Shown here: piece by piece, positions 1 to 25,636 of the stretch
Layout: each line of letters begins with the position of its first letter
How positions within the stretch are numbered: the stretch's first letter is position 1
NCBI GenBank assembly: GCA_013285735.1
Contig: JABDGZ010000007.1
Coordinates: 1 to 53,630 of the forward strand
Direction: 5' to 3'
DNA from: Candidatus Omnitrophota bacterium
GTDB lineage: Bacteria > Omnitrophota > Gorgyraeia > Zapsychrales > Fredricksoniimonadaceae
DNA length: 53,630 bases
Position numbers and translations under genes: made by a program
Notes under the pieces: model-generated
Told to the model about the DNA's origin: nothing
Database searches by the model: none
The model's input: only the letters and a program-made list of their open reading frames with translations

Positions 1-548
1 ACAATCGCTGGGGCAAGGGAGCGAGCAGGATTCATTGATGCCCCTGTAATTGGCCCAGCAAAAATAGCTTCCAATGCGACCATGCCTCCAATAGCAACGC
101 CTGCCATCAAGCCCTTCTCCTTGGCTCCTTGGGCCACATGTATAATAACAAACATAAGAAAAAAGGTAAGGATTGTTTCAAAGACGAAATCACCCATTGG
201 TGAAATCAGATTAGGCACAGTAATCCCTAACGTCTTATGCTGGGGGAATATAATTCTTAACAACACACTGGCTGTAAGGCCACCTAATATTTGGCTAATC
301 ACAAAGGGGAATAACTCTTTAAGAGAAAGTCGTTTTGCTAACCAGAATCCAAATGAAACGGCAGGATTAAAATGTGCTCCTGATATTTCACCCAGGGCAT
401 AAATCATGGTCATTATGATTAAACCAAAGACTAAACCAACACCAAGATGGGTAATCACTCCCCCGCAAATATCATTGATGATAATAGCTCCCGTACCAGC
501 AAAGACTAAAGCAAAAGTGCCTATGTATTCACTAAAATATCTGTTCAT
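1..548 (-). CDS. MIP/aquaporin family channel (aquaglyceroporin-like), truncated by the window edge
   Basis: Reverse-strand translation from 548 gives [21 protein letters not shown]...[16 protein letters not shown]...[19 protein letters not shown], with both NPA boxes; the frame runs off position 1. Confidence 0.9.
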
Positions 549-991
549 GTTTTATTAGTAGATGTACAAACTTTAACACACCAACCTTCAATCTTCTGCT
601 TTATAGCGTCACGGATAGGTCTTATTTGGTTAAGTTTTTCCTTATGACTTCCCGTGGCCTTTGAAGGGTCAGGGAAGCTCCAATGTAGCCGTTGGGTTAA
701 GCCAGGAAAAATAGGACATCGTTCTGCGCTGGCCTCGTCACAAACAGTAATAACATAGCTAAAATGTTCTCCTCTTTTAAAAAGGTCAAAAACTGCCTGT
801 GTCTTTTTACGGGATATATCAATTCCTTCCTCTTTCATAACTTCAACGACCAACGGATTCAATACACCAGGCTCAAGACCTGCACTTTGGGCTTCAAAGG
901 AATCACCACAGATATGGTTTAACCATGCCTCTGCCATCTGGCTTCTTGCTGAATTGTGAATACAAACAAACAACACCTTTTGTTTAGACAT
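545..991 (-). CDS. arsC: Arsenate reductase, thioredoxin-coupled low-molecular-weight phosphatase type
   Basis: N-terminal [18 protein letters not shown] (P-loop CxxNxxRS), later VITVCDEA and HWSFPDPS; overlaps the start of the MIP gene. Confidence 0.88.
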
Positions 992-994
992 GGC

Positions 995-1291
995 TTATCC
1001 TCCTTTAATGACTTTACAACAGCCACCCTCTATCTTTAATGATTTAATTTCTACTAAGGCTTGAGCAATTTTCTTACGGGCAGATGAGATTATTCTTGAG
1101 ACAGTGGAACGATGGACACGCATTTCTTTAGCGGCCTGTAGCTGGGATAACCCTTCATGGTCTAAAAGCCTTACAGCTTCAAACTCATCCAAGGTTAAGA
1201 CAATGGCATCTTTTGCATTACCTTTTGGCCGAGGCTCAAAATTCCGTTCCGCAGGACTACATTTAACCCAACGTATTTTCTTTGGCCTCAT
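995..1291 (-). CDS. DUF134/UPF0251 family HTH DNA-binding protein
   Basis: MRPKKIRWVKCSPAERNFEPRPKG...LTLDEFEAVRLLDHEGLSQLQAAKEMRVHRSTVSRIISSARKKIAQAL is typical of DUF134; the internal Met at 1291 is preferred over the ORF-track start at 1309. Confidence 0.85.
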   Translation of the reverse strand: MRPKKIRWVKCSPAERNFEPRPKGNAKDAIVLTLDEFEAVRLLDHEGLSQLQAAKEMRVHRSTVSRIISSARKKIAQALVEIKSLKIEGGCCKVIKGG

Positions 1292-1499
1292 AATAAATCT
1301 ATTATGCACATACGTGCATTATTATCAAGATAAAAAAGCCTGCATAGGAGGAGGGAGAGGTCTAATTTGCAACGGTCCCATCAATCAATAACACACTCTC
1401 TATGCTTCGATACCCCCTGGTCGGATTTGCCAAAAGTCATTTTCCAGAAAAAACCGGCTGGCCCAATTTTTTTAGGAACTGATTTTTTTGATTACCCTT

Positions 1500-1787: not shown

Positions 1788-1816
1788 AGGATAACACCTC
1801 TTTTGAGAGGTGTCAA
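1788..1816 (-). promoter_or_regulatory. Sigma70-type promoter (TTGACA-17 bp-TATCCT) with an embedded inverted repeat
   Basis: Minus strand: TTGACA (1816-1811), 17-bp spacer, TATCCT (1793-1788). ACACCTCT-TTTG-AGAGGTGT (1794-1813) is a perfect 8-bp dyad inside the promoter. Confidence 0.55.
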
Positions 1817-2071: not shown

Positions 2072-4171
2072 TTATGCTCCAGAGAGAGCTCTCATTTTTC
2101 TTGCTTCATTAATTTCAAAATAAAAATCGAGGGAACTAAAAGTAAGGTGTCTAGTACTCCATAGTTCGCGTTTAAAATCTTCATTTGATCGGACCTCATC
2201 GAGAAGAACTAGAAATTGCGGAATGCTAAGAAACCAGCTATTGAAATAGGGAATCTTATGTTTCACATCTATTTTGCACAACTCGATTTCTTGAGAATAC
2301 AGCTCTCTACATTTTTCGTTTAGTTCATCAAAATCAACCTGATGCTTTGGGTCTACTGCATTGAACTGTGCAGTCGTTACCAATCGCATTAACTGAGCTA
2401 TTACCCTTCGATCCTGAATCCCACCGTAATCTAAAAGTGTAAGCGAGATTCTTTCTATTCCACGATCTTTATGCTCTAGTCGGTATGTTGTTCCAGAAGA
2501 ATCTTCTAAATCCAGGTATCGTTGTTTGCGTATTGCTATTTCATGATTACCAAGCTGAATCTGTGAATCTATTAAACTCTTAGATATATCTACAAGAAGT
2601 TTTACGTCATTTCCTCCCTGGGCCTTCCGTGTAAGAACCTTCGATTTAAGTTCAATGAAAATAATTGCTTCTTTAGTTTCAATTACGCAATCACATTCCC
2701 ACTGCTTCCCGTTATACGAATACTTTCCAGAGGAATAGCTAACATTTCTTGCCACCAATTCCCTTTTTAAGAATCTCTCCCCTGCCAATCCTATTCTTTC
2801 TTGTGTTCTCTCTGAGCCAACATACGATCTTATGACTGAAGCAACCGCCTCATAAAAACCAACACTACACCAAGACAAATCCATTAAACAATAATCTTGT
2901 TCAATTTGTAAAAGAGGTTTGAATTGATAATCAATGGATTCAACTTCATGGGGAATACTAAACTTATGATTGGGCCCAGGTTTAACGTGAGAAAATGCCT
3001 TAAGTATTATTTCGACGACCCCATCATTCACATTTTGAGTATTAGTGATGACATCCTTGGTATTAAAGAATACGGTTTTTTGAGGTGGGGTTAATCGAAG
3101 TATGGCATTTATTACCTCAACAGCCTGTGTCATATTCCATCTCAACTTTTCCTGCATTTCTGAATTATCTACCCAATCGAATAAATTTTGGATCAGTTTA
3201 ACAATATCGGAAGGTCGCAGCTGTCGAATTAAAAACAAGGAATCGTAGAGACTGATTTCCCTTAAAAAATCTATTAATGTATCAACTGTCTGAAATTCAA
3301 TTTCAAACCGAGAGTACGGCTGAACATCATATAAACAACCAAGAGCTATTAATTCATCCTTAAATCTTTCTATGACTTCTTGGGTCAGCTCACCACCAAT
3401 TAAATTATTCGCTTTTATACATAGATTTAGAACATACCCTAAGGGTATTTGAGCAGAAACTTCCTGGCCTGTATTAGGACAGTTTCGACAAAGATGATAT
3501 CTCCCTAACGCCGAATCAAATCTTTCTGAAAGTTTGATAAAAATGTGAACGGCCATCTTGAGTCCTCCGAGACTACGAAGATCTTTCTCAATAGACTCAA
3601 TCAACACTTTCAATTGATCATCCGGCAATTGAAAACGCCCACTCTCAACAGATAATCCATCAAAGCTATGTTCATTTAACCAAATCAATCCCTTAGCGGG
3701 TTTTGATAATCTGGGGAATCTAAGTTCGTTATCTGCATTTGTGTATTGATTTGGATATGGCGACCTCAAGATAAGTACATCCTTAATCAATTTAATCGCA
3801 TCTTTCCATTCTTTATTCTTATCAAAGAATAGAAACCTCTGATTCTTTTGTAATTTTCTTGATGCTTCTTTAAGGGTATCCGCAACAGAAAGATAACTAA
3901 CCAGATCCGACCTCTCGATTATCTGCTGTCGAACCAGCTGCTTAAATAATAGCCAAAAATCTCTAGAGTAAAACCCTTCATTTGAGGTCACAAGTGTTTC
4001 TACGATTCGACTCTCAAGGTGGCTTATAACATGATTCACGGTCAAGGATGAGCCAATAGACATTTCAAAATGGTTATACAATTTCGACAAGTCTACTGGG
4101 TAAGCCTCCAATGAAGGCTTTACTGAATCAACGATGCTCTTAAATTGTTCCTCTTGGATCATATTCTTCAA
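2072..4171 (-). CDS. Large uncharacterised protein with a PD-(D/E)XK nuclease-like domain
   Basis: ERFLKRELVARNVSYSSGKYSYNGKQWECDCVIETKEAIIFIELKSK contains E...(C)D...(I)ELK spacing like NERD/Mrr-type nuclease cores; no other domain recognised. Confidence 0.6.
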   Translation of the reverse strand: MKNMIQEEQFKSIVDSVKPSLEAYPVDLSKLYNHFEMSIGSSLTVNHVISHLESRIVETLVTSNEGFYSRDFWLLFKQLVRQQIIERSDLVSYLSVADTLKEASRKLQKNQRFLFFDKNKEWKDAIKLIKDVLILRSPYPNQYTNADNELRFPRLSKPAKGLIWLNEHSFDGLSVESGRFQLPDDQLKVLIESIEKDLRSLGGLKMAVHIFIKLSERFDSALGRYHLCRNCPNTGQEVSAQIPLGYVLNLCIKANNLIGGELTQEVIERFKDELIALGCLYDVQPYSRFEIEFQTVDTLIDFLREISLYDSLFLIRQLRPSDIVKLIQNLFDWVDNSEMQEKLRWNMTQAVEVINAILRLTPPQKTVFFNTKDVITNTQNVNDGVVEIILKAFSHVKPGPNHKFSIPHEVESIDYQFKPLLQIEQDYCLMDLSWCSVGFYEAVASVIRSYVGSERTQERIGLAGERFLKRELVARNVSYSSGKYSYNGKQWECDCVIETKEAIIFIELKSKVLTRKAQGGNDVKLLVDISKSLIDSQIQLGNHEIAIRKQRYLDLEDSSGTTYRLEHKDRGIERISLTLLDYGGIQDRRVIAQLMRLVTTAQFNAVDPKHQVDFDELNEKCRELYSQEIELCKIDVKHKIPYFNSWFLSIPQFLVLLDEVRSNEDFKRELWSTRHLTFSSLDFYFEINEARKMRALSGA

Positions 4172-4223
4172 TCAAGGTCTTTGTGTATTTTAGTTTTGAA
4201 GGACTTCGTAGGAATGATGGAAT

Positions 4224-4949
4224 TTATTTACTACAATGGGCAGCTAAATAATCATTATACGCATTAATGCTGGCATTATAATCGTCTATCCTTTTCTGAA
4301 GCGCATCCCAATCATTATTATATGATGATTTTTTACTATTATATTCATCGACCTTTTGATTATATGAATCGATTTCATATTGAGGCGAGTCAGATGTTAT
4401 TCCCATGTTGTTCATGTCAGTCATTAAATTATCGAGTTCTTCCTTACGCACCTTCAAGTCAGCCTGAGTACTTTCAATAGATTCTTTTTCAGAATCAGGA
4501 GGATTTAATAATGCCGCCTGATTATGATAATACTGCGAACAACTATAGGAACCGTCAGTTACAACACCGTTTGATTCGGTAGAATAGTTTGGAGAAGGAT
4601 TGTAAGACGATGTTGTTGATGTAGGGGTTGAATAATTAGAGTGATACCTATTATTTTTAGTATATGAGCATAACAATACCAAAAGAAGAAGCCATACCCA
4701 AAAATGCTTCCAAAGAAACCTATAAAACCAAACAAGACCACTCCACAACATTACAAAAATATTCTTAGAATTTGAAGTTTTTCCCTTTCCTGATTTCTTT
4801 ATTGAAGCTGATCGACCTTTCTGGTCGGCACTAGCTGACGTTTCATTCTTTGATTTGGTATCTTCCGTGACCTGCTCCCTACAATATGGACAAAATTTTG
4901 TCTCATTTGGTAAGTCTCTTTCACAACATTTACATACTGCTGTGGTCAT
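4224..4949 (-). CDS. Zinc-ribbon / single-TM / coiled-coil protein
   Basis: N-terminal CKCCERDLPNETKFCPYC zinc ribbon, TM segment HFWVWLLLLVLLCSY, C-terminal Lys/Glu/Asn-rich helical region. Confidence 0.7.
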   Translation of the reverse strand: MTTAVCKCCERDLPNETKFCPYCREQVTEDTKSKNETSASADQKGRSASIKKSGKGKTSNSKNIFVMLWSGLVWFYRFLWKHFWVWLLLLVLLCSYTKNNRYHSNYSTPTSTTSSYNPSPNYSTESNGVVTDGSYSCSQYYHNQAALLNPPDSEKESIESTQADLKVRKEELDNLMTDMNNMGITSDSPQYEIDSYNQKVDEYNSKKSSYNNDWDALQKRIDDYNASINAYNDYLAAHCSK

Positions 4950-5335
4950 TTTTTATCTCCAAAAAAAACGTCATCATCTGAACCGCTTAAATTTCTCTTT
5001 ATTTCCTTTATTAAAAATACTGCTTCAGTATTGCCAAACTTGATCTTATCGTTATTCTTTAACTCAGATTTTTGTTCTACCTTAACGCCATTTAAATAGG
5101 TCCCATTCGTACTTTTTAAGTCCTCTAGAACATATTTATTCTTATCCTTAAAGATTCGAGCATGTTTTCTTGAACAAAAGGAGTCATAAGGAATTTGAAC
5201 GGACGAATTCTCCTCACGGCCAATAATAACGGGCTCCGTAGATTTAATAGCAAACCTATGCCCTTGCATCGGCCCTTCTGTTATTAGTAAAAAAACCACC
5301 TCAATATCCATCACATCATTATTCCCTTTTTCCAA
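4946..5335 (-). CDS. FHA-domain protein
   Basis: EPVIIGREENSSVQIPYDSFCSRKHARIF...YVLEDLKSTNGTYLNGVKV: the FHA GR...SxxH...NGT/NG signature. Confidence 0.92.
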   Translation of the reverse strand: MEKGNNDVMDIEVVFLLITEGPMQGHRFAIKSTEPVIIGREENSSVQIPYDSFCSRKHARIFKDKNKYVLEDLKSTNGTYLNGVKVEQKSELKNNDKIKFGNTEAVFLIKEIKRNLSGSDDDVFFGDKK

Positions 5336-6372
5336 CCCGATAAAATAGGTCCATATTTCGATAACAATTCCGACTTCTTGCCCGATGCTTGTTTAGAAAT
5401 TACCTCTTCTAATATCTCAACTGCTTTTGAGAGTGTTGCATATTGTTTACCTAAAGACATTGCCTGATTTATTGCACCGTTTATACCTTTGGAACTATTT
5501 TCTTCATATTCAACGAGGGCCTCTAAAAAGGAACCCGCATCTTGATATCGGTCTTTCATATCTACAGCTAATGCTTTAAGAACAATTGCATCAATTTCTT
5601 TATCTAAATCTTTGTTAAAGTTTGATGGCGGAGGAGGCATTTTACTACGTGAAGCTTTAATAGCTGCCTCAGCTACGGCCTTTTGCGTATACGTTTCTTC
5701 AGGCATCACGTATGGTGGAACTCCAGTTAGCATCATATAAAAAACGATGCCAGCAGAAAAAACGTCACTGGCTGGAGATTCATAATTCCAAAAAGCTTCA
5801 GGTGGCATATATGCAAGCGTGCCACCCGCTGTTATGAGCTTTGTTTCAGAATCTACGTGCCGGGCAAGACCAAAATCACCAACTTTTGCACAGAATTTAC
5901 CTTCTTGGATTAAAAGTAATATATTGTTTGGTTTTATATCCCGATGAACCACTGGAGGAGTCATCTTATGAGCTTGTGCCAATCCCCTACAGATATCCTT
6001 TTGCAAATTTAAGGCCTCATTTATAGACAACCTTACTTTATTATCGATATATTGAGCTAAATTAGGCCCGTTGACAAACTCCGTAGCTATATAGTTAAAA
6101 CGTCGTGAATCATAACGGAATGAATTAGCTTCAAAAACCCTTACTACATTTTCTTGAGCAATTTTAGAAAGAATAAAAGCCTCATTAAATAATTCTGCCT
6201 CTTGATCCATTGATATACTTCCAGGATGAAAAATCTTTATTGCCTGAATTCCAAGATACTTATGACGAACCTTATATACCGCACCAAATGCCCCCTGCCC
6301 AAGGAATGCGTCAATGGTATAGGTTTCCTTTATTTCTAGAAAACGTGGTAATCTTTCAATCTCATAACTCAT
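5311..6372 (-). CDS. Eukaryotic-like Ser/Thr protein kinase
   Basis: GQGAFGAVYKV (G-loop), AIKIF (Lys), VVHRDIKPNNILL (HRD), GDFGLAR (DFG), MPPE motif; catalytic motifs intact. Confidence 0.95.
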   Translation of the reverse strand: MSYEIERLPRFLEIKETYTIDAFLGQGAFGAVYKVRHKYLGIQAIKIFHPGSISMDQEAELFNEAFILSKIAQENVVRVFEANSFRYDSRRFNYIATEFVNGPNLAQYIDNKVRLSINEALNLQKDICRGLAQAHKMTPPVVHRDIKPNNILLLIQEGKFCAKVGDFGLARHVDSETKLITAGGTLAYMPPEAFWNYESPASDVFSAGIVFYMMLTGVPPYVMPEETYTQKAVAEAAIKASRSKMPPPPSNFNKDLDKEIDAIVLKALAVDMKDRYQDAGSFLEALVEYEENSSKGINGAINQAMSLGKQYATLSKAVEILEEVISKQASGKKSELLSKYGPILSGWKKGIMM

Positions 6373-6374
6373 TG

Positions 6375-8843
6375 TTATCTTATCCCTGCATCACTAACTT
6401 TATTCTGAATATTATCCTGGGTATCTTTGGGCATGAGTCCCCAAATTTGCCACATGATACTCTTTAAAGAATCGAAATCTTGTCTCTGAAGCGCTATCCG
6501 ACCTTCATTAATTAAACTTTGAGCTTTTACAGGATCGGTATATGAATAATTGCCACTTTTCACCTCTTGGAACACACCAATCCAAAAATCAGATTGGTCA
6601 AATGTAATTTTCCAATGAAGATTGTTTAATTCATCAATAAAATGGCTTAATTTCTTTACATCTTTAGAACCTATAGCTTTTTCACATTCAATTTTTAATG
6701 ATTCAAAACGATCTTTATCTTGTTGCTTACCACGGGTCTCCACTAAAGGTTTCACATTCTTGAGAGCTTCATCATAACTTGCCATAAGAGACGGCCATTT
6801 AGTGAGACTCTCTAAAGAATCTAAAGCAATCTGTAAATCCTTTAATCTCCTATCAGCCTTTTCTGCTGCATCAGGATCGCCTCCTTGGGCAGCATTAATA
6901 TCCGACTCTAATTCTTCCACTTTGGAAGAAATATGTCCTTCTCCTAACCTTTCAACTAAATCACTATTACCTGAACTTTGAATTTTACCTTTTATTTCTT
7001 GATAACGACTACTTTCTTCCTTTAAATCTTTGGCTAACTTCTGGGCATCTGGTTTAGGAGAAACTTTATTTACTAAAACATCATCGAACTTTGCATCAAT
7101 ACATTCAATATATGCTGAGATCTTTGGGCTCCTATCCTTATCGATGCTTAGAACAATGTCTATATTTTGATTCTCAGGAACCGTCTTTTTAATCATTGTT
7201 CCACTAATTATAAGCTCACCGACACGGCGATTCCTTTTAGCAAACTCACTTTCTCCTTCACAAACTATAATCTTAATTTCACCGTTTTCATTTGGTTTTA
7301 GTGTTTTGACCGCTTTATATGTCTTCATCTTACCTCTTGCTGGTAACGTAATGCCACGCTCCAAATGCTTATCGAATGAACCATCTTCTAATTCAAGACC
7401 AATTGAGCGTGTCAACGTTGCCTCACCGACAGAAATACCCTGAGTAATAGTAAAATTATCTGGATCACAGGGTATAGAATTACCCGCATTATCAACAATT
7501 GATACACTGAATGAATTTAATTTCTTTTCCGATAACGGCACTGTTAATACAAATGCTCCATTTTGAAGTGCGACTAAACCGCTTTGCCAATGTCCGTCAT
7601 TTCGACGGAGCTGAACCTGACAACCAGCGGGCGCACCTTCTAATTTCCCTGCAACATGCGTCTCAATTTCTATAGTCATGGGTGAATAATTCAATTTTAA
7701 CGAATGTTTTGACTTATCTTTTATGACTAAATCATCCGGCAACATTTGAGTTGCCGCATAAATAGCAGCTCCTTGTGCAACGACCGTTAAAGGATTGATT
7801 CGGAATTCAACTGGAATACCAAGCTCGTCCTTTAATCTTTGTCGAATTATAGGAGTTTTTGTTGGTCCTCCTACCAATAAAATATTAACGATGTCGGATG
7901 GTATTAATTGTTGTTGTTTTAATGCCGACTTCAATAGATCAACGGTCTTTATAACATAGTCCTCTATCAGATCTTCATACTGCTTTCTGGTGATAGGTAT
8001 ATTTATAGAAATTTCCCTGCCGTCTTTATCTTTATACCGGGAATCTATGGTTATTTCCGCCTTGTCACTATTAGAGAGCTCAATTTTTGCTTTTTCACTC
8101 TCAGCCTTCAAAACAGAATTTAAAGACTGATACGTTAGATTTGTTCTATTTAAATTTGGCAAATTATATTCTTTAGCAAGAATAGGATGGATAAAGCGCT
8201 CAACGATCCTCCAATCAAAATCTTTACCTCCCAAATAATTATCTCCACAATGATCGACAACTGTTAATCGCCCTTCCTTTGCAGACATGATTGCAATATC
8301 AAAAGTGCCCCCACCCAAGTCATATACTACCCAATAACCTTTAGGCATGTTTTCAATAAACCCATAAGCAATTGATGCTGCAACAGGTTCTTGCAACAGA
8401 GGAGAATATTCAATACCTGCCAATTTAGCAGCTCTCTTTGTCGCTTCACATTGTATATCTTCAAAGTTACATGGAACTGTTATTACAGCGGCAATAACAT
8501 CCTCATCATAACTATTTCGAGCTGTCGCTCTCAAATTCTTTAATACTTCAGCTGACATTTCCTCCGGGGTTAAAGTACGTCCTGAAGCTTTAAAACTGCC
8601 CGTCTGATGTGTCCCCATCCACCGTTTAAATTCAATAAAGGTATTCTCAGGATCGCTAACATGACGTTCGTATGCCTTCCTTCCGATAATAACTTCGCCT
8701 TTCTCTGTCAGCCTGACTACCGAAGGTGTGAACTCCTCTTCATAGTTATTCTTAAGAACCCTGACCTCACCGTTATGCATACAAGCAACTTCAGAATTAG
8801 TGGTGCCCAAATCAATACCAAAGTCTATGGTTCTTCTGGCCAT
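6375..8843 (-). CDS. Divergent Hsp70/DnaK-family ATPase (822 aa) with an additional inserted domain
   Basis: FGIDLGTTNSEVA, VYDLGGGTFDIAIM, LLVGGPTKTPIIR; NBD followed by an extra beta-rich segment and then an SBD-like region. Confidence 0.93.
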   Translation of the reverse strand: MARRTIDFGIDLGTTNSEVACMHNGEVRVLKNNYEEEFTPSVVRLTEKGEVIIGRKAYERHVSDPENTFIEFKRWMGTHQTGSFKASGRTLTPEEMSAEVLKNLRATARNSYDEDVIAAVITVPCNFEDIQCEATKRAAKLAGIEYSPLLQEPVAASIAYGFIENMPKGYWVVYDLGGGTFDIAIMSAKEGRLTVVDHCGDNYLGGKDFDWRIVERFIHPILAKEYNLPNLNRTNLTYQSLNSVLKAESEKAKIELSNSDKAEITIDSRYKDKDGREISINIPITRKQYEDLIEDYVIKTVDLLKSALKQQQLIPSDIVNILLVGGPTKTPIIRQRLKDELGIPVEFRINPLTVVAQGAAIYAATQMLPDDLVIKDKSKHSLKLNYSPMTIEIETHVAGKLEGAPAGCQVQLRRNDGHWQSGLVALQNGAFVLTVPLSEKKLNSFSVSIVDNAGNSIPCDPDNFTITQGISVGEATLTRSIGLELEDGSFDKHLERGITLPARGKMKTYKAVKTLKPNENGEIKIIVCEGESEFAKRNRRVGELIISGTMIKKTVPENQNIDIVLSIDKDRSPKISAYIECIDAKFDDVLVNKVSPKPDAQKLAKDLKEESSRYQEIKGKIQSSGNSDLVERLGEGHISSKVEELESDINAAQGGDPDAAEKADRRLKDLQIALDSLESLTKWPSLMASYDEALKNVKPLVETRGKQQDKDRFESLKIECEKAIGSKDVKKLSHFIDELNNLHWKITFDQSDFWIGVFQEVKSGNYSYTDPVKAQSLINEGRIALQRQDFDSLKSIMWQIWGLMPKDTQDNIQNKVSDAGIR

Positions 8844-8854
8844 ATCGTTCCCCT

Positions 8855-9352
8855 TTATTTCTGCGTGGATTTAGCCACCACGACTTCTCCATGAAAAATT
8901 ACTTTTTCGTTATAAAAAATAGTTGGTCTAATAGTTTCTACAATCTTCGCATAACCAGCAGGTAACGTAGGATCGTCTTCAAAATGTAAAACCCGCAATG
9001 AAATACCTTCTTTATATCCTTGCTCTAAATAGTCCTTAACAACAATACCTTCACGGATAAAAAGATCTTTTATACGTTCCATCTGATCAAAGAACGCACT
9101 GAGATCTACACTTGGCTGCTCCTCCTTAAGCTTCTTGAGTCGCTTTTCCAAACGCCACATCTCCACACAAAATGAAATGGTCAATTTAAATCCATTATTA
9201 AAATCATTAACAGGAATTACGTTATCTGGATGAAAGAGTTGGCACGGTTTTGTCATACAATCTTTTAAAAGAGAATTGTTCTTAAATCCAAAAAAGATGA
9301 AATCGTCGCTACCTTCACTTGGACCTTCTTTAATCCGAACTTTAGGAATCAT
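8855..9352 (-). CDS. GrpE-like protein (putative nucleotide exchange factor for the adjacent Hsp70)
   Basis: Coiled-coil-like helices followed by ...GYAKIVETIRPTIFYNEKVIFHGEVVVAK, resembling the GrpE beta-wing C-terminus; position next to Hsp70 is supportive. Confidence 0.5.
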   Translation of the reverse strand: MIPKVRIKEGPSEGSDDFIFFGFKNNSLLKDCMTKPCQLFHPDNVIPVNDFNNGFKLTISFCVEMWRLEKRLKKLKEEQPSVDLSAFFDQMERIKDLFIREGIVVKDYLEQGYKEGISLRVLHFEDDPTLPAGYAKIVETIRPTIFYNEKVIFHGEVVVAKSTQK

Positions 9353-9379
9353 TATTTATTTCTCCAGTTAAATATTCAC

Positions 9380-11008
9380 TCAAGAATTGCACATACCAAC
9401 GACAGCCCACGTTGAGAATAAAGCCATGCCCCACTGCCACACTTTTTGCCACTTGTGCAATTCAATTTCACCAAAGAACCTGTAACTGCCGTTACTAACA
9501 AGTTCCAATGTATATCTTCTAATAGGAACTATCGGAATAAATAAAAAAACCAAATACAATGTATCACCGTATATCCTTGAGCCGAATCCATTAGTGGTCG
9601 ATAAATTAGGGGCACTTTTTATAGGTTTTCCCTGTTTTTTAATTCTCTCTTCGAGGGAATCTTTAATCTCTTTCAATGTATTCTTAATTGACTCACTGGT
9701 ATCTTTATCGTCTAGATACTCATTCAACACAACCATAGCTTGATCTGAATTACCATTCTCAATTTCCCTCATTATTCTATTTACTATTACTTCTTGTTCC
9801 TTATCAGATGACTTATACAACAAATTCTTTTTAAAAACATCCCTATCTTTCTCAAATCCCTGTTTTATATATTCGGAAGAAGCTATAGCAAGGGCTTTAT
9901 TAATCAATAACAATGCATGAGCATCATCGTTGTTGGGAGCTTTATTCAAAGCGATAGAAAAATTTCTCATTGTTTGAGCTAATTGATCTTTTGCCAAAGA
10001 AGCCTCAGAAATTGAGTGATTATCTACTAAATTACATTCATACAAAGCGTCGGCAGTTTCTTTTAATAACTGATTCGATAAGGTATAAATTGCATTTGGA
10101 TACGGAGAAACATCATCTTTCCTAAGCAAATTAAGATACTTTTCAGCTGCCTCACGAATTTGATTATTGCGAACTTTCAGAATATCATTAAATCCTTCCC
10201 GTAAAACATCAATAGGGAAAGTCCTATTACTGATCAATGAAGAGTGAACCTTAACCCGTTTATAATCCTTTGAAATTAATGAACTCTTTATTAAAGAAAA
10301 GTTTATATTTAAGAAATCAGCGACAAATTTCTCATGCATAGACTCAACTTTCGCATTATTTAATCTCGCATCTGCAAGGTTACGAGCTCTTTCATGAACC
10401 GTTTTCCAGAAATCAGAGGATTGGTTAATCGACAACATTAAATCCATTGCAAAATCCCAATTTTTCCAATGATTATCGGACAACCTCTTGAATCCTTCTT
10501 TAGGCACTAAAATTAATTCGTCACCACATTTAACACAATACACGTAATTTTCGTTATGGTATTCTTGGTCACATGAAGAGCAGCGTATGACCTTTTCTGA
10601 CGTGCTATAAACAATGGTTGCTTCAAGGCCAATCACTATGCTATGCACTAATATAAAGCGATTGTGCTTCGCTGAAATATCATCCGCCTTCCAAAGATTA
10701 TTGGCCCCTTGTTTATCCCCTTTTGTCAATAAAGCCATTGCAGCCTTATCGTTATCTGTATTAAACCAAAACCAAGCAATTTCTTCTTGGAGCCTTGAAA
10801 CTGGATTTTCTAATCGCTGAACGGCATTGTTAATATTCTCCTCACTGCGATCGACTGGCCCCATCCAGGGAAAGTCATAATCATAGGAAACATCCATTCC
10901 TACGGAACTTTTAACTTTGATTTCGTTTGCCCTAGAGAGAATGCCCTTGCCGTCTGTATTGGGCATAAGACCAAGAACACGAAATGCGTTATTTTGATAT
11001 TTATTCAT
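9380..11008 (-). CDS. Zinc-ribbon/helical-repeat/TM protein with a degenerate J-domain-like N-terminus
   Basis: NAFRVLGLMPNTDGKGILSRANEIK...RLENPVSRLQEEIAWFWF; CSSCDQEYHNENYVYCVKCGD zinc ribbon; C-terminal hydrophobic LYLVFLFIPIVPI and WQWGMALFSTWAVVGM. No HPD motif. Confidence 0.55.
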   Translation of the reverse strand: MNKYQNNAFRVLGLMPNTDGKGILSRANEIKVKSSVGMDVSYDYDFPWMGPVDRSEENINNAVQRLENPVSRLQEEIAWFWFNTDNDKAAMALLTKGDKQGANNLWKADDISAKHNRFILVHSIVIGLEATIVYSTSEKVIRCSSCDQEYHNENYVYCVKCGDELILVPKEGFKRLSDNHWKNWDFAMDLMLSINQSSDFWKTVHERARNLADARLNNAKVESMHEKFVADFLNINFSLIKSSLISKDYKRVKVHSSLISNRTFPIDVLREGFNDILKVRNNQIREAAEKYLNLLRKDDVSPYPNAIYTLSNQLLKETADALYECNLVDNHSISEASLAKDQLAQTMRNFSIALNKAPNNDDAHALLLINKALAIASSEYIKQGFEKDRDVFKKNLLYKSSDKEQEVIVNRIMREIENGNSDQAMVVLNEYLDDKDTSESIKNTLKEIKDSLEERIKKQGKPIKSAPNLSTTNGFGSRIYGDTLYLVFLFIPIVPIRRYTLELVSNGSYRFFGEIELHKWQKVWQWGMALFSTWAVVGMCNS

Positions 11009-11055
11009 TCTTAAACACCCTACTTACAAGCTCGTCATTATTTCTTATGTCCCAC

Positions 11056-11268
11056 TCAGTTATTCTTGAAGTTTTCTATATCCTTCTTGATTAACTCGTT
11101 GTGCTCTTCGATTATTTTCTTTAGTTCTGTGACATCACAACTATTTTTCTCGACAGTATATAAAACTAAAAGGAAAATACCAATAACCACAAACTGAATA
11201 TAATAATGATGAATCAAGAAACTTAATCCCAATGACACAACTCCGCCGATTAAATAGAAATATTTCAT
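11056..11268 (-). CDS. Small two-TM membrane protein
   Basis: YFYLIGGVVSLGLSFLIHHYYIQFVVIGIFLLVLY hydrophobic hairpin; start overlaps the stop of the upstream HTH gene. Confidence 0.65.
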   Translation of the reverse strand: MKYFYLIGGVVSLGLSFLIHHYYIQFVVIGIFLLVLYTVEKNSCDVTELKKIIEEHNELIKKDIENFKNN

Positions 11269-11453
11269 CCTCTCCCAGCCTCCTTTAATTTACGATGAAT
11301 ATATCTTTTAACTTCGTCCATCGTAATTCTGTAACCACCCCGACGACCTTCTTTATAGGCTTTGATCTTCCTTTGACGAATAAGCTCCCTAACGTATTCT
11401 TCGCTTAGACGAAGCATACCGGCGACCTCTTTAGTAAGTAATACCTTTTCCAT
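11265..11453 (-). CDS. Excisionase/MerR-type (HTH_17) DNA-binding protein
   Basis: LLTKEVAGMLRLSEEYVRELIRQRKIKAYKEGRRGGYRITMDEVKRYI: HTH_17/excisionase pattern. Confidence 0.85.
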   Translation of the reverse strand: MEKVLLTKEVAGMLRLSEEYVRELIRQRKIKAYKEGRRGGYRITMDEVKRYIHRKLKEAGRG

Positions 11454-11853: not shown

Positions 11854-13197
11854 TCAAACAAAATTGTATTTATAACCACAAACAGCACATTCCATTTTTG
11901 GACTCTTCAGACCTACTTTTTTAATAGTCATCGAGGTTATGGATTCTCTAAAATCCATTTCCCCTCCTTGATCCAAGAAAGGTTGAACCAAATGTCTGAT
12001 GAACAAAGCAGCAAAACTGGCGGCTCGCATATTCAATTCCATAACAGCAGGCTGCTTAATATCAATATCCTGACAATACCCTAAACCAATATGCCTCCTT
12101 CTTTCCTGTAGCTGAAGACCTTCCAATCTTATTCTTTCATGGTCAATTAACCCCCTACAATTTAAACACGGTCCTCCTGGATAAACATAGGTTACACGGG
12201 CGTCTAAAGATTGTAGTTTTTCCCCGGCGATTCCAATTTCGCTACCTAAATCAACATAAGGCATAAAATATTTCACGGCAAAATCATTTAAAACATACCT
12301 TGGATAATCTTTATCGATACACCCAATCAATAAATCAATTCCACTTAATTTATGAAGGACTGAGGGATTGGTCACATTCCCGTCGATGATCTCTAACTTA
12401 TTTTCCAAAACGCATTGATCATTGGCCCTCAAAGCCACCGACACTTTTTTATTTTTCTCTTCGACATCAGTTGATGAGGCAAACAAAAGTCTATTGAGAT
12501 TTGTATCCTCTACAATATCATCGTCGATCAATAATAGGTTTCCACAACCTGCTCTCCTCAACAGTTCAACCATCAGGCAACCCGTACCTCCGGCACCGAT
12601 AATTGCGATCTTCATGTCTTTTAAAATCTGAAGTGCTCCCGCTGATGTCACCTCTTTCGCACGATCAAAAATATGTGAAGGCATTGGCGGTTGGACACGA
12701 TTCCCAAACAATGAAATGACCTTTATGGTTCGCCCTATGACGTATAATTTCATCAAATCCTGGGCCCGTTCACCTTGCAAATAAACCCTTCCTTTATAGG
12801 CGTTTTTACCAACGACGATGCTAATGTGTTCTGAACCTGGCCAGATCTCCCGAAGGTTCTTTATTAATAGGGGTTCTTGAGTATCATCAAACCAAGAGAA
12901 AGACACCTGGTCGTTGGCCAAAGGGTGTGTATGGAAGAATACCAGCCCGCTCTTGCCTTGTCGCTGCGCCCAGAGCTGTGCCCGTCTGATATAAGGGGAC
13001 GAAAATATAAGCCCTCCTTCTGATTGATCCAAGTCTTTTTGTGTTGGTAGGAAAATTTCCCGTATAAGGAAGACTTCATCTCCCAATTTTTCTACAACAC
13101 CAATTATTCCCCACTCTAAAGTCCTATTTTGGTTAAAAGACCGATTTAAAATCTGATCAATCTGTGTCCAAATAATTTCACTTGTTCTGATTATCAT
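11854..13197 (-). CDS. JAB/JAMM deubiquitinase-like domain fused to an E1/ThiF-like adenylating domain
   Basis: JAMM motif: upstream Glu in LEWGIIG, FFHTHPLANDQVSFSWFDD (HxHPx7SxxD). E1: IAIIGAGGTGCLMVELLRRAGCGNLLLIDDDIVEDTNLNR, plus CLNC/CAVC Cys pairs. Confidence 0.92.
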   Translation of the reverse strand: MIIRTSEIIWTQIDQILNRSFNQNRTLEWGIIGVVEKLGDEVFLIREIFLPTQKDLDQSEGGLIFSSPYIRRAQLWAQRQGKSGLVFFHTHPLANDQVSFSWFDDTQEPLLIKNLREIWPGSEHISIVVGKNAYKGRVYLQGERAQDLMKLYVIGRTIKVISLFGNRVQPPMPSHIFDRAKEVTSAGALQILKDMKIAIIGAGGTGCLMVELLRRAGCGNLLLIDDDIVEDTNLNRLLFASSTDVEEKNKKVSVALRANDQCVLENKLEIIDGNVTNPSVLHKLSGIDLLIGCIDKDYPRYVLNDFAVKYFMPYVDLGSEIGIAGEKLQSLDARVTYVYPGGPCLNCRGLIDHERIRLEGLQLQERRRHIGLGYCQDIDIKQPAVMELNMRAASFAALFIRHLVQPFLDQGGEMDFRESITSMTIKKVGLKSPKMECAVCGYKYNFV

Positions 13198-13206
13198 ATA
13201 TATTCC

Positions 13207-13596
13207 TTAATTTGACCTTGAACCCTTTCTTAAGAAGTCTTGACAATGATAGATGTGCGTTAAAAACGTGTCTGAGAAAGACCAAGGTTTATTATAATGC
13301 CATGAAACTACCCCCCAGGACTTTCCCAATATGTTGGGCGCTGGCTGTACCCTCGGATGCTTCTGACCGTTATGTAACATCAGGGCACTATCTATATAAA
13401 AAGCATCCAATCCTCCCACGGGATAGGTATTAGGAACCGAAATCAGCATATCGACGGTAGCAATGGTCCAATCCTTATTTAATGTGGGCACACCATTAAC
13501 CAACATATATAATTGACCATTCTCCATACGGTCGCAGGCATTAAATCCACCTGCGACCGCCTCTGATAATTGTTTTAACATAAGCGTTTGTTCCAT
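13207..13596 (-). CDS. E2/UBC-like protein (prokaryotic E2 family E type)
   Basis: VPNTYPVGGLDAFYIDSALML...GKSWGVVSWHYNKPWSFSDTFLTHIYHC pattern (YP..LD.FY / W..WH...W....D.LTH), located between Ubl and E1 genes. Confidence 0.72.
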   Translation of the reverse strand: MEQTLMLKQLSEAVAGGFNACDRMENGQLYMLVNGVPTLNKDWTIATVDMLISVPNTYPVGGLDAFYIDSALMLHNGQKHPRVQPAPNILGKSWGVVSWHYNKPWSFSDTFLTHIYHCQDFLRKGSRSN

Positions 13597-14195
13597 TATC
13601 TGCCTCCGTATTTTCCATCTTTTAGAGCGACGAAACGCTCACCTCGATGAAGCTTTACCAAGGTGTCAATAGGCAATGGCTCGCTGCCATCCAAATGGTA
13701 TAATGAATACTGACCGTCATCCAAATCAAATAATTGCAGTATTGCACGGGGTGTCATTTCTTCTTTGGGGGCGATTTTCCAATTAGCATTGACCTGAATG
13801 CTGAGAGATAATTTCAAACTGAGCTTTAGCCTGGCGTGATGTTGGGTTATTACTTCCCATATCGGGGCAGCTAAGTCCGTTATTGGCCCCATTATGTTAT
13901 TATGACGGTCATAATAGAACAACTGGTCTAATGGTTGTTCGGGTTCGGGCGGTAAAAGCTTTTGATGAAATTCTTTGGCGATAATGTGCATGACTTCTTT
14001 TACAGAATCAGATAATTTAATCTCTATAACCTTAAACTCATCATTGGAGAGGATGCTGACTTTGAATGGTATCTTTAGCCCAAGGATTTCTTGTTCAGAA
14101 ATCTTCAGTATTTCCTCCGGCAACCCTTCTTCCATGTCCAAAGACTCGATGATTTTCCCGATACCACGAAATTCCTGCTCAATAACTTTTTCCAT
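13596..14195 (-). CDS. Tandem ubiquitin-like (multiubiquitin-type) protein ending ...KYGGR
   Basis: Two Ubl-like segments (IPFKVSILSNDEFKVIEIKLSDSVKEVMHII... and SIQVNANWKIAPKEEMTPRAILQLFDLDDGQYSLYHLDGSEPLPIDTLVKLHRGERFVALKDGKYGGR); one-base overlap with the E2 gene. Confidence 0.75.
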   Translation of the reverse strand: MEKVIEQEFRGIGKIIESLDMEEGLPEEILKISEQEILGLKIPFKVSILSNDEFKVIEIKLSDSVKEVMHIIAKEFHQKLLPPEPEQPLDQLFYYDRHNNIMGPITDLAAPIWEVITQHHARLKLSLKLSLSIQVNANWKIAPKEEMTPRAILQLFDLDDGQYSLYHLDGSEPLPIDTLVKLHRGERFVALKDGKYGGR

Positions 14196-14265: not shown

Positions 14266-14311
14266 GCTGCTAATTATGTCAAGCAATAAATAGCAGCTTG
14301 ACTTATCAAGC
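14266..14311. promoter_or_regulatory. Candidate operator region between the Ubl operon and XRE-ImmA genes
   Basis: Inverted pairs GCTGCTA (14266-14272)/TAGCAGC (14291-14297) and GTCAAGC (14278-14284)/GCTTGAC (14296-14302), plus another TCAAGC at 14306-14311. Confidence 0.4.
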
Positions 14312-14357
14312 ACTAAAATGCTATACTATTTCCATAAATTCTAAGAAAGGAGGCCTT

Positions 14358-14735
14358 ATGAATACACCAGAATCTACTGTGGGCTTAAAATTAAAAGAGC
14401 TGCGACTACTTAAAGAGTGGAGTTTGAGAGATGTAGAGAAAGCCACTCAAAATATGGTATCCAATGCTTATTTAAGCCAGATTGAATCGGGCAAGATAAA
14501 ACAACCTTCCCCTCATATTTTAAACCATTTAGCTGAAGTTTATGAAGTGGATTACAAAGACCTTTTAACCACAGCCGGATACATTAAACCAGCAATTGGA
14601 GAAAAAAAAGGCAAAGGACATGGCATCGCTTTTTTTAATCAACAAGATGTCACTGAAGAAGAAAAAAGGGAACTATTAGATTACCTTCAATTTATCCGTG
14701 CTAAAAAGGGTAAATACAAACATGAAAAAGAATGA
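14358..14735 (+). CDS. XRE-family HTH regulator
   Basis: LKLKELRLLKEWSLRDVEKATQNMVSNAYLSQIESGKIKQPSPHILNHLAEVYEVDYKDLL; GAAAGGAGG SD before ATG 14358. Confidence 0.9.
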   Translation: MNTPESTVGLKLKELRLLKEWSLRDVEKATQNMVSNAYLSQIESGKIKQPSPHILNHLAEVYEVDYKDLLTTAGYIKPAIGEKKGKGHGIAFFNQQDVTEEEKRELLDYLQFIRAKKGKYKHEKE

Positions 14736-15630
14736 TTGCTTCCTTGAACCCATTGAGTTGGAAAATGTTCGTGCTTATGCACAGGTTTTATTAAATAAAG
14801 CCGATGCTATGCGACAATTTCCAACTCCTGTGGAAAGAATTTTGGAGACTGCGGATTTATTTGTAAATCAGGAAATTTCATTGGAACATGCGCCTGGATT
14901 GCTTGAAAAATTTGGATCAGAACTACGAAAGAAAGCCAGGCTGCCTGTATCAAACATAAAAAAATTGTTTGGTCTTTTGCACGTACCTTCCGGCGAGATT
15001 ATTCTGAACCACTCTCTGCATAAAAACAAGAAAACCTTTGTCAAATTACATGAGGCTGGCCATAGTTTTATTCCTCATCATAAGAAATTTTTTGAAGTCA
15101 TGGAAGATGGTGAGGTTGAATTGGACCCGTATATTGATGACCTTCTCGAACGTGAAGCCAATAATTTTGCGTCGGAGGTCTTATTTCAACTGGATGAATA
15201 TGCAAAAATTGCAGCGGATTATGAGATATCAATCAAGACGCCAATGGATCTTTCCAAAAAATTTGGAAGCTCTGTTTATGCAAGTATGCGGAGATATGTC
15301 CAGACCCACTTCTCCCATATTGCACTTGCAGTATACGAAATCGATCCATTGGTTCAAAATGGTTTTATTTTAAGAAGAGAGCCCTTTCATTCCGAGTCAT
15401 TCTTAAAACAATTTGGTGTACTTAATCTTCCTGTTTCTTGCTCCAGCGATGAACCTCTGGGACGGCTGCTTGGATTCACAAAGCTTGATATCACCCGCAG
15501 AATGTTCATTAAGGACAGACGGGACGAGAGTTACGAATGCGCCCTTCATATTTTTAATAATTCCTATCAAATATTCGTCCTCTTAATACCCTCAAAGAAA
15601 TCAAGAATCTTTATCCAAGAAATCTTATAA
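14722..15630 (+). CDS. ImmA/IrrE-type zinc metallopeptidase (COG2856-like)
   Basis: FVKLHEAGHSFIPHHKKFFE (HExxH) with following LEREANNFASEVLF; overlaps the end of the XRE gene (ATG 14722). Confidence 0.9.
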   Translation: MKKNDCFLEPIELENVRAYAQVLLNKADAMRQFPTPVERILETADLFVNQEISLEHAPGLLEKFGSELRKKARLPVSNIKKLFGLLHVPSGEIILNHSLHKNKKTFVKLHEAGHSFIPHHKKFFEVMEDGEVELDPYIDDLLEREANNFASEVLFQLDEYAKIAADYEISIKTPMDLSKKFGSSVYASMRRYVQTHFSHIALAVYEIDPLVQNGFILRREPFHSESFLKQFGVLNLPVSCSSDEPLGRLLGFTKLDITRRMFIKDRRDESYECALHIFNNSYQIFVLLIPSKKSRIFIQEIL

Positions 15631-15686: not shown

Positions 15687-15866
15687 TTAATCTAAATACT
15701 TCTTCCTGGATTCATCAATAGCCAAGGATTTGTTTCTGTCTATTTCCTTAAACCTGGCTTCTGTACTCTTCTCAAGCTCTAATCTTGTTTTTTGCACGTC
15801 GTCGGATGAATTGAATATTGATTTTGTCTTCAGGAAGGGATTTTTTTCAATTCCTAAGATAGGCAT
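15687..15866 (-). CDS. 59-aa small protein, not in the ORF track
   Basis: MPILGIEKNPFLKTKSIFNSSDDVQKTRLELEKSTEARFKEIDRNKSLAIDESRKKYLD; TAATG overlap with the upstream gene and SD GAGGAGAG. Confidence 0.7.
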   Translation of the reverse strand: MPILGIEKNPFLKTKSIFNSSDDVQKTRLELEKSTEARFKEIDRNKSLAIDESRKKYLD

Positions 15867-21867: not shown

Positions 21868-23046
21868 CTATTTTTTATCGTTGGATTCGGTACTTGGGGA
21901 TTCCTCTAGAAGCATATCCAGTTGCCTTGCAGCGTCCGCGTATGTTTCTAAGGGTAATAGGTGGCCGTAACGGTCAATGGTTGTTTGAATTGACGCGTGG
22001 CCTACTTGATTTGAAATAAACTTAATGTTTTGGCCCTGATCAATCAGTATTGAAACAAACGTGTGCCTGAGATCATGAAAACGGATCTTTTTAAGCCCCG
22101 CACGTTTTAATGTTGGCAAAAATTGTCTATTACGAATATTATCCGGATCGAGCGGCTGACCTTCTTCACCACAAAAAATCAATTCATGGGGGCTGGTTGG
22201 CGCTGTTACCTTGTGATTTTCTAAAGATTCTTTTAATTTCGGTGTTAAAAGAACAGTGCGATAAGAACTGCGGGTTTTAGGTGTGATAAAACGCCATAAT
22301 TGATTATTTTCATCCCTATTCTTTGTTGTCCAATAGATACTGCGCCTGACATAAATGACACCGCGCACCCAATCAATATCCGGCCATTGTAAGGCCAAGA
22401 GCTCACCCAAGCGCATACCGGTGAATATAGCGGACATAAACAGGATTTTATAGGGCTCCTGGGCATGTTTAAGCAGTACGCGTACATTCTCTGGGGGCAA
22501 AAAGTCCATTTCTTTATGAGTGCTTTTAATACGATCAACCTTCTCCGCAGGATTACGGGAAATATAGTCCCAACGATAGGCGTATTTAAAAATTGTCTTA
22601 ACAAGGACCAAAACATTATTGGCAGTTTTAGGGGACCGGTTTTGTTTAACCCTGGCTATAACGTCTTGGATCTTCTCAGTTGAAATTTGAGAAATCTCAT
22701 AATGGCCAATTGACGGTAATATATGATAATTGATGGTGTTAACGTAGCTGTCATAGGTAGAAATTTTGATGTTGGGCTTGGCATAGGTCTCAAGCCATTT
22801 GGTGACAAAGTCTTTAAAGAATATTTTCTTAGGAGTAACAAAAGAATTGTTAGCAAGTTGTGTATTTATTTCGTTAAGTCGACGCTCTGCTTCTTTTTTA
22901 TTGGAGCCTATAGTTTCTGAGCGTTGTTTATACCCTTCGCGGTAAACAATAACGTACTCAGCCTCTTTATGATCACATGAAGCATAACCTGTGCGCCCTT
23001 CTCTTCGACAAATACGACATCGTTTTAAAATGCTTCCTCTTGCCAT
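21868..23046 (-). CDS. Tyrosine recombinase / phage-type integrase
   Basis: SAM-like N-terminal (KDFVTKWLETYAKPNIKISTYDSYVNTI) and catalytic TGMRLGELLALQWPDI, HDLRHTFVSILIDQG, HASIQTTIDRYGH: R..HxxR..H..Y. Confidence 0.97.
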   Translation of the reverse strand: MARGSILKRCRICRREGRTGYASCDHKEAEYVIVYREGYKQRSETIGSNKKEAERRLNEINTQLANNSFVTPKKIFFKDFVTKWLETYAKPNIKISTYDSYVNTINYHILPSIGHYEISQISTEKIQDVIARVKQNRSPKTANNVLVLVKTIFKYAYRWDYISRNPAEKVDRIKSTHKEMDFLPPENVRVLLKHAQEPYKILFMSAIFTGMRLGELLALQWPDIDWVRGVIYVRRSIYWTTKNRDENNQLWRFITPKTRSSYRTVLLTPKLKESLENHKVTAPTSPHELIFCGEEGQPLDPDNIRNRQFLPTLKRAGLKKIRFHDLRHTFVSILIDQGQNIKFISNQVGHASIQTTIDRYGHLLPLETYADAARQLDMLLEESPSTESNDKK

Positions 23047-25559: not shown

Positions 25560-25636
25560 TGGTTGCGGGGACAGGATTTGAACCTATGACCTCCAGGTTA
25601 TGAGCCTGGCGAGCTACCGGGCTGCTCCACCCCGCG
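25560..25636 (-). tRNA. Initiator tRNA-fMet (anticodon CAT)
   Basis: Reverse strand CGCGGGGTGGAGCAGCCCGGTAGCTCGCCAGGCTCATAACCTGGAGGTCATAGGTTCAAATCCTGTCCCCGCAACCA; C1-A72 mismatch and encoded CCA. Confidence 0.96.

Follow-up and report, generated by a model that had tools for sequence, protein, structure and literature searches.

The bNACHT25 receptor senses phage through the host chaperones DnaJ and DnaK (PMC12169576), and an HSP70/GrpE/DnaJ theme characterizes predicted GTPase-centric conflict systems with GAP1-N2 (Kaur et al. 2020, PMC7159879). CoCoNuT systems, whose type III encodes the Hsp70-like protein CnuD, depend on a McrB-type NxD GTPase, and their Walker A-like motifs are degenerate (PMC11090510). 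KKP combines two kinases, with CSD and FHA fusions, and a PP2C phosphatase in phage defence (PMC11341870). We analysed a nine-gene minus-strand operon centred on an Hsp70 within a 53,630-nucleotide stretch of Candidatus Omnitrophota bacterium (the window; assembly GCA_013285735.1, contig JABDGZ010000007.1, positions 1 to 53,630), which is one whole contig of a genome that is 71% complete. A reading of the letters alone (the original prediction) had described the operon as a self-contained chaperone and phospho-signalling sensor with a nucleolytic effector, possibly anti-phage. We find that it contains a real, conserved and mobile Hsp70-centred module that is undescribed within the searched literature and probably defensive. 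We place it with the chaperone/NTPase-based conflict systems, a known kind, and do not claim it as categorically new.

The GAP1-N2 systems resemble the operon and its relatives in combining HSP70 and GrpE with a DnaJ- or TPR-type partner, zinc ribbons, and transmembrane (TM) and peptidoglycan-binding parts, and in their predicted membrane-proximal role in conflict. They differ in carrying GAP1, a TRAFAC GTPase and FNIII repeats, where the loci studied here carry a kinase and FHA protein or an AAA ATPase; no GTPase or GAP1 Pfam match was found in the operon, in the scanned genes flanking its syntenic counterpart (locus L011, below) or in the scanned proteins of the AAA-bearing relatives. CoCoNuT type III shares an Hsp70-like protein in a defence setting, but here the ATPase motifs are intact and neither a McrB-like GTPase nor McrC is present among the nine operon proteins. 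KKP likewise has a Ser/Thr kinase with an FHA domain, yet it includes no chaperones, whereas this operon has one kinase, a separate FHA protein and no PP2C. The likeness to bNACHT25 lies in chaperone-dependent phage sensing, although there the chaperones are the host's and the receptor is a NACHT protein, while the present system supplies its own chaperone.

The kinase domain and the helix-turn-helix (HTH) protein match PADLOC models (mad6, PD-T4-6 and mad1). The kinase's best match, which covers its kinase domain, is PD-T4-6 (8.2e-59), itself a stand-alone kinase. The HTH protein is mad1-like (2.2e-5), and no further component of the MADS mad1-mad8 set with its methyltransferase occurs among the nine operon proteins. 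The TerY-P triad (vWA, PP2C and kinase-zinc ribbon) is also a poor fit, with no vWA or PP2C in the operon. The AAA ATPases of related loci score with IetA models of IetAS (AAA ATPase and subtilisin), but no subtilisin was found in the Hsp70 operons and the AAA ATPase there is coupled to Hsp70 and a GrpE-like protein. The published precedents (bNACHT25, KKP and GAP1-N2) cover single steps and none has the operon's gene set, in keeping with the original prediction's failure to recognise a named defence system. PADLOC-DB 2.0.0, NCBIfam and PHROGs hold no model for the Hsp70 tail, the GrpE-like protein or the scaffold protein described below, and PADLOC-DB has none for this Hsp70 as a whole. A description of the operon was not found in open-access papers, a search that did not extend to bioRxiv, subscription journals or the latest DefenseFinder models.

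A collinear operon in a second Omnitrophota genome

We searched 384 Omnitrophota genomes for synteny, the conservation by which the original prediction proposed to be judged. One locus (L011) in metagenome-assembled genome RS_5_28 (G134), from the same class and a different family, carries seven genes in the same order and on the same strand: HTH, scaffold, GrpE-like, Hsp70, kinase, FHA and zinc-ribbon/TM. Identities between the two loci are 60% for the HTH protein, 57% for the kinase, 53% for Hsp70, 41% for the FHA protein, 38% for the scaffold and 33% for the GrpE-like protein. Neither the small TM gene nor the PD-(D/E)XK gene of the window has a counterpart there. Because the 70-residue TM protein has no homologue in L011, it is, on sequence comparison, outside the conserved core.

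All nine open reading frames lie on the minus strand at the positions in Table 1, as closely packed as had been proposed. In the order of transcription, the HTH and small TM genes overlap by 4 bp, and gaps of 47, 27, 11 and 2 bp separate the small TM, scaffold, GrpE-like, Hsp70 and kinase genes. The kinase and FHA genes overlap by 25 bp, the FHA and zinc-ribbon/TM genes overlap by 4 bp, and the nuclease-like gene follows after 52 bp. Four of the proposed labels were secured by Pfam matches above threshold (HTH_17, 2.8e-11; HSP70, 3.5e-95; Pkinase, 2.8e-45; FHA, 8.9e-22). The kinase motifs GxGxFG, AIK, HRDIKPNN and DFG are all intact. The zinc ribbons show visible CxxC pairs, with Pfam scores below the cut-off.

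Around the operon of RS_5_28, a phospholipase-D-like protein is encoded upstream (L011 15355-17004), and small multi-TM and possible restriction-fold (QVKT) proteins are encoded downstream (L011 4166-4624). These flanking proteins are candidate variable effectors.

A divergent Hsp70 with an inserted domain

A grouping with housekeeping DnaK would have counted against the original prediction. In a tree of ATPase-domain sequences, with ten DnaKs, one HscC and one halobacterial Hsp70 (encoded near a tubulin-like gene) for comparison, the window Hsp70 and ten relatives instead formed one clade with support of 100/99. Mapping onto DnaK delimits a nucleotide-binding domain (NBD, ~1-375), an inserted beta domain (~376-478), the beta part of the substrate-binding domain (SBD-beta, ~478-583; tail score 55 versus at most 30 in shuffles) and a helical tail (~584-822). 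The insert of ~100 residues between NBD and SBD-beta has no counterpart in DnaK and stands where DnaK has its short linker. The insert and the long tail, ~240 residues and predicted to be helical, are common to all 10 aligned family members. A low-confidence AlphaFold model built from a two-row alignment (pLDDT 50) places strands at 381-469 and helices at 600-819. From its sequence, then, the window Hsp70 is distinct from housekeeping DnaK.

We employed a profile of the tail to follow the family across the Omnitrophota. Three of the 384 genomes score 529-592 bits across the whole profile, while no DnaK-length protein of the other genomes exceeds about 40 bits, with matches confined to the part of the profile that starts at position 105; the family is therefore cleanly separated. 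It is absent from six other genomes of the same genus (0/6), and same-genus relatives keep canonical grpE-dnaK loci separately.

The GrpE-like and scaffold proteins

The GrpE-like protein has no Pfam match, and a profile search of the PDB with its family found nothing. Its label was nonetheless borne out by profile-profile comparison (hhalign) with nine housekeeping GrpE proteins (P = 8.8e-5), where its score of 35.4 compares with a best score of 17.5 among 30 column-shuffled controls, consistent with a GrpE-type C-terminal beta domain.

The zinc-ribbon protein, originally called J-like and here termed the scaffold, fared otherwise. Its profile-profile score against the J-domain (18.1) is at the level of noise (best shuffle 17.1), it has no HPD motif, and Foldseek returned only non-significant helical-repeat matches, with no J-domain among them. 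We therefore do not retain the J-domain assignment. Its N-terminal region recurs, as a remote homologue, in the AAA-type loci (hhalign P 1.5e-6). Scanning GTDB contigs and viral contigs by pattern with the scaffold yielded no additional loci. The window's zinc-ribbon/TM protein closes with a coiled coil whose match lies at the end of the RS_5_28 scaffold (tblastn 1e-5), which indicates that parts have been shuffled between these proteins.

A wider family with an exchangeable enzyme

Full-length relatives occur on plasmids of Pseudomonas, Haliscomenobacter, Vibrio, Polaromonas, Shewanella/Aeromonas, Aminobacter and Sinorhizobium, in a further Omnitrophota genome (G304) and in 1 of 5,426 E. coli genomes (HeN100), where the locus has five genes (NZ_CP044443.1 4115537-4122320). 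The gene set of this wider family comprises the GrpE-like protein, Hsp70, the scaffold and a membrane coiled-coil protein. A GrpE-like gene of ~115-130 residues adjoins Hsp70 in all of these loci but that of Haliscomenobacter, in which a single protein joins the GrpE-like domain with a TM segment and a coiled coil (hhalign P 1.9e-5). Of the 10 aligned family members, nine have a GrpE-like gene beside Hsp70 and the tenth has the TM fusion.

The enzyme encoded beside this set varies. It is an IetA-like AAA ATPase, a kinase-AAA fusion (the gene after Hsp70 in Haliscomenobacter), or a kinase with an FHA protein (the window and RS_5_28). The membrane protein of the AAA type has a TM segment, a DYNSRC coiled coil and sometimes PG_binding_1, and the window's zinc-ribbon/TM protein is homologous to it (hhalign P 1.4e-5; score 37.8 versus a null maximum of 19.6). 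The two Haliscomenobacter fusions, kinase-AAA and GrpE-like-TM, link the kinase type, the AAA type and the membrane.

The nuclease-like gene

The residues D494-x12-E507-x-K509 of the last gene are invariant in five homologues and conform to the pattern D-x(n)-[DE]-x-K, so that its proposed description as PD-(D/E)XK-like holds and the protein is likely a nuclease of this superfamily. Profile searches of the PDB with this family found nothing, and a pattern scan of viral contigs gave no additional loci. Homologues stand alone on plasmids of Xanthomonas, Alteromonas, Methylobacter and Bradyrhizobium without an Hsp70 or kinase neighbour, and the 384 Omnitrophota genomes contain no full-length match besides the window copy. 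Because of these solo homologues and the gene's absence from the locus in RS_5_28, it is probably an independent solo mobile gene, a neighbouring cargo that acts separately, and not the operon's effector as originally proposed.

Defence context, proposed mechanism and alternatives

Several family loci adjoin BREX, Zorya with BREX, RADAR RdrB with DptF (in E. coli), Tn7-like transposition genes, Gabija with a type IIG enzyme, a DrmC-like gene or GajA/OLD-like ATPases. As a rough control, we looked for clear defence genes in 25-kb stretches taken far from the family loci on seven of these records. Defence genes lie near 6 of 7 family loci and in 2 of 7 control regions (one-sided Fisher p = 0.05), a comparison that is uneven in that controls were judged by annotation alone and PADLOC was additionally applied to three family loci. 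Such proximity is suggestive and not proof; overall, the genomic evidence for a defence role is moderate. On the Haliscomenobacter plasmid segment (L025 1-25696), SIR2, WD40, Hsp70/kinase-AAA/TerB and BREX genes stand in a row.

We lean, by a little, towards a mobile, dedicated Hsp70 signalling module whose task is most likely phage defence. The Hsp70, driven by its own partners, would bind a client exposed by infection, such as an unfolded phage protein; alternatively, an envelope change relayed by the membrane coiled coil may be the trigger. The nucleotide cycle of the Hsp70, with exchange by the GrpE-like protein, would then release or assemble the adjacent enzyme, the kinase here or the IetA-like AAA ATPase in relatives. 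Phosphothreonine marks made by the kinase would recruit the FHA protein, and growth or phage production would probably be halted by phosphorylation or protein remodelling. The Hsp70 machine would thus be partly tethered to the membrane and gate a signalling enzyme during phage infection. The stronger form of the proposal, an undescribed antiviral class in which an element-encoded Hsp70 cycle, a GrpE-like protein and a membrane/peptidoglycan coiled coil switch on interchangeable enzymes, is put forward tentatively, as something we would sooner doubt than assert.

From the original defence reading, the synteny, the non-housekeeping Hsp70, the mobile island and the defence neighbours stand, and neither of the two outcomes named as refuting it was observed; its nuclease effector and its J-domain do not stand, and its anti-phage function and sensor role are inferred. 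The patchy distribution of the family also speaks for a defence module. Besides the scaffold's noise-level J-domain score, several points weigh against the phage defence that we favour: the conserved core encodes no recognisable toxic effector, the kinase and FHA form is known from two genomes only, and the defence association rests on few loci, unevenly compared.

The peptidoglycan-binding and TM coiled-coil partners, the many plasmid-borne loci and the proteostatic default of Hsp70/GrpE chemistry would also suit a non-antiviral stress-response or envelope-maintenance module by which mobile elements guard themselves or their host from protein or envelope damage. We hold this to be rather unlikely, since most of the genes nearby belong to defence systems or island cargo and not to stress responses, the distribution is patchy, and the kinase with FHA and the kinase-AAA fusions suggest signalling. 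That all nine genes form one system, with the PD-(D/E)XK protein as a nucleolytic effector switched on by phosphorylation, is improbable: the gene is co-directional, lies close downstream with its motif intact and has a terminator-like hairpin on its 3' side, but it is missing from the syntenic locus and its homologues in four genera have neither Hsp70 nor kinase beside them. Least credible by far is the view that the operon holds a decayed second copy of housekeeping dnaK-dnaJ-grpE, lying beside a kinase/FHA pair that is unrelated to it. The adjacency of the Hsp70 and GrpE-like genes does recall dnaK operons, but tree and synteny already contradict this explanation, with a distinct clade, a family-specific inserted domain, a linkage to kinase and FHA conserved in RS_5_28, and canonical grpE-dnaK loci retained separately by same-genus relatives.

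Genomic setting

The operon and a tyrosine integrase both lie on the distal side of a tRNA-Met gene, and the island setting beside an integrase that had been proposed is indeed that of a mobile island at a tRNA-Met site. In a sibling genome (G468; L139 612-17009), the same tRNA-Met borders another island, ~16 kb long, at whose far end the last part of the tRNA is repeated perfectly over 63 bp. By names taken from reading translations, the products of that island include a DNA methyltransferase and proteins resembling an integrase and a reverse transcriptase, and it has none of the window's island genes. Different islands at the same tRNA-Met mark the site as an integration hotspot. The rest of the window shows no attachment repeat of the tRNA-Met, which places the far border of its island beyond the contig.

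Table 1. Positions of the operon genes and island features in the window
Feature	Coordinates	Strand	Evidence
HTH_17/excisionase-type DNA-binding protein, 62 aa, first gene of the operon	11265..11453	-	Pfam HTH_17; collinear homologue in L011, 60% identity
Small protein, 70 aa, two predicted hydrophobic segments	11056..11268	-	Hydropathy
Zinc-ribbon helical scaffold ("J-like"), 542 aa, N-terminus YQNNAFRVLGL	9380..11008	-	Homologues in L011, L023 and remote AAA-type loci
GrpE-like nucleotide-exchange-factor candidate, 165 aa	8855..9352	-	hhalign to housekeeping GrpE
Divergent Hsp70, 822 aa	6375..8843	-	Pfam HSP70; domain mapping; separate clade
Ser/Thr protein kinase, catalytic motifs intact, 353 aa	5311..6372	-	Pkinase; motifs; 57% identity in L011
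Predicted stand-alone FHA phosphothreonine reader, 129 aa	4946..5335	-	Pfam FHA; 41% identity in L011
Zinc ribbon, one TM segment and YN-rich coiled coil, 241 aa	4224..4949	-	hhalign to AAA-type membrane protein
PD-(D/E)XK nuclease-like protein, 699 aa	2072..4171	-	Invariant D494..E507-x-K509
Terminator-like hairpin just 3' of the last gene	1792..1815	-	Pattern scan only
Tyrosine integrase of the island	21868..23046	-	Pfam Phage_integrase 1.1e-26
tRNA-Met beside enolase, island integration site	25560..25636	-	ARAGORN

Directly upstream of the operon is a ubiquitin-like conjugation module (11854-14195, minus strand) that encodes a 199-residue putative ubiquitin-like protein, a Prok-E2_E protein (PF14462, 3.7e-13) and a ThiF E1 with a sub-threshold JAB-like N-terminal region. 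A JAB and ThiF cluster also lies near the nuclease homologue on the Xanthomonas plasmid (L007). Divergent from the ubiquitin-like module, on the plus strand (14298-15630), an HTH repressor gene is followed by one for an M78/IrrE-like peptidase, a pair resembling an ImmA/ImmR-type switch that would serve the island. Two island proteins of ~500 residues (15866-17353 and 19547-21082, minus strand) appear alike by eye; neither has a PADLOC match, and the former weakly resembles Peptidase_C39_2 (3.9e-4). At the other end of the operon, pattern-scan matches such as the terminator-like hairpin are no commoner than in shuffled sequence. Past this hairpin, a low-molecular-weight phosphotyrosine phosphatase gene stands beside a DUF134 HTH gene (545-1309, minus strand), with no sign that the phosphatase belongs to the kinase operon.

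Implications

If the proposed signalling role is correct, bacteria would possess a chaperone machine that can be transferred and that delivers a signal instead of a folded protein, with an Hsp70 cycle linked to a kinase or AAA ATPase in immunity. Sensing of phage through host chaperones by bNACHT25 would be a parallel, except that this system brings its own chaperone. The insert between NBD and SBD raises the question of how allostery works when a folded domain replaces the DnaK linker, and the copy in E. coli HeN100 makes the module testable in a laboratory strain.

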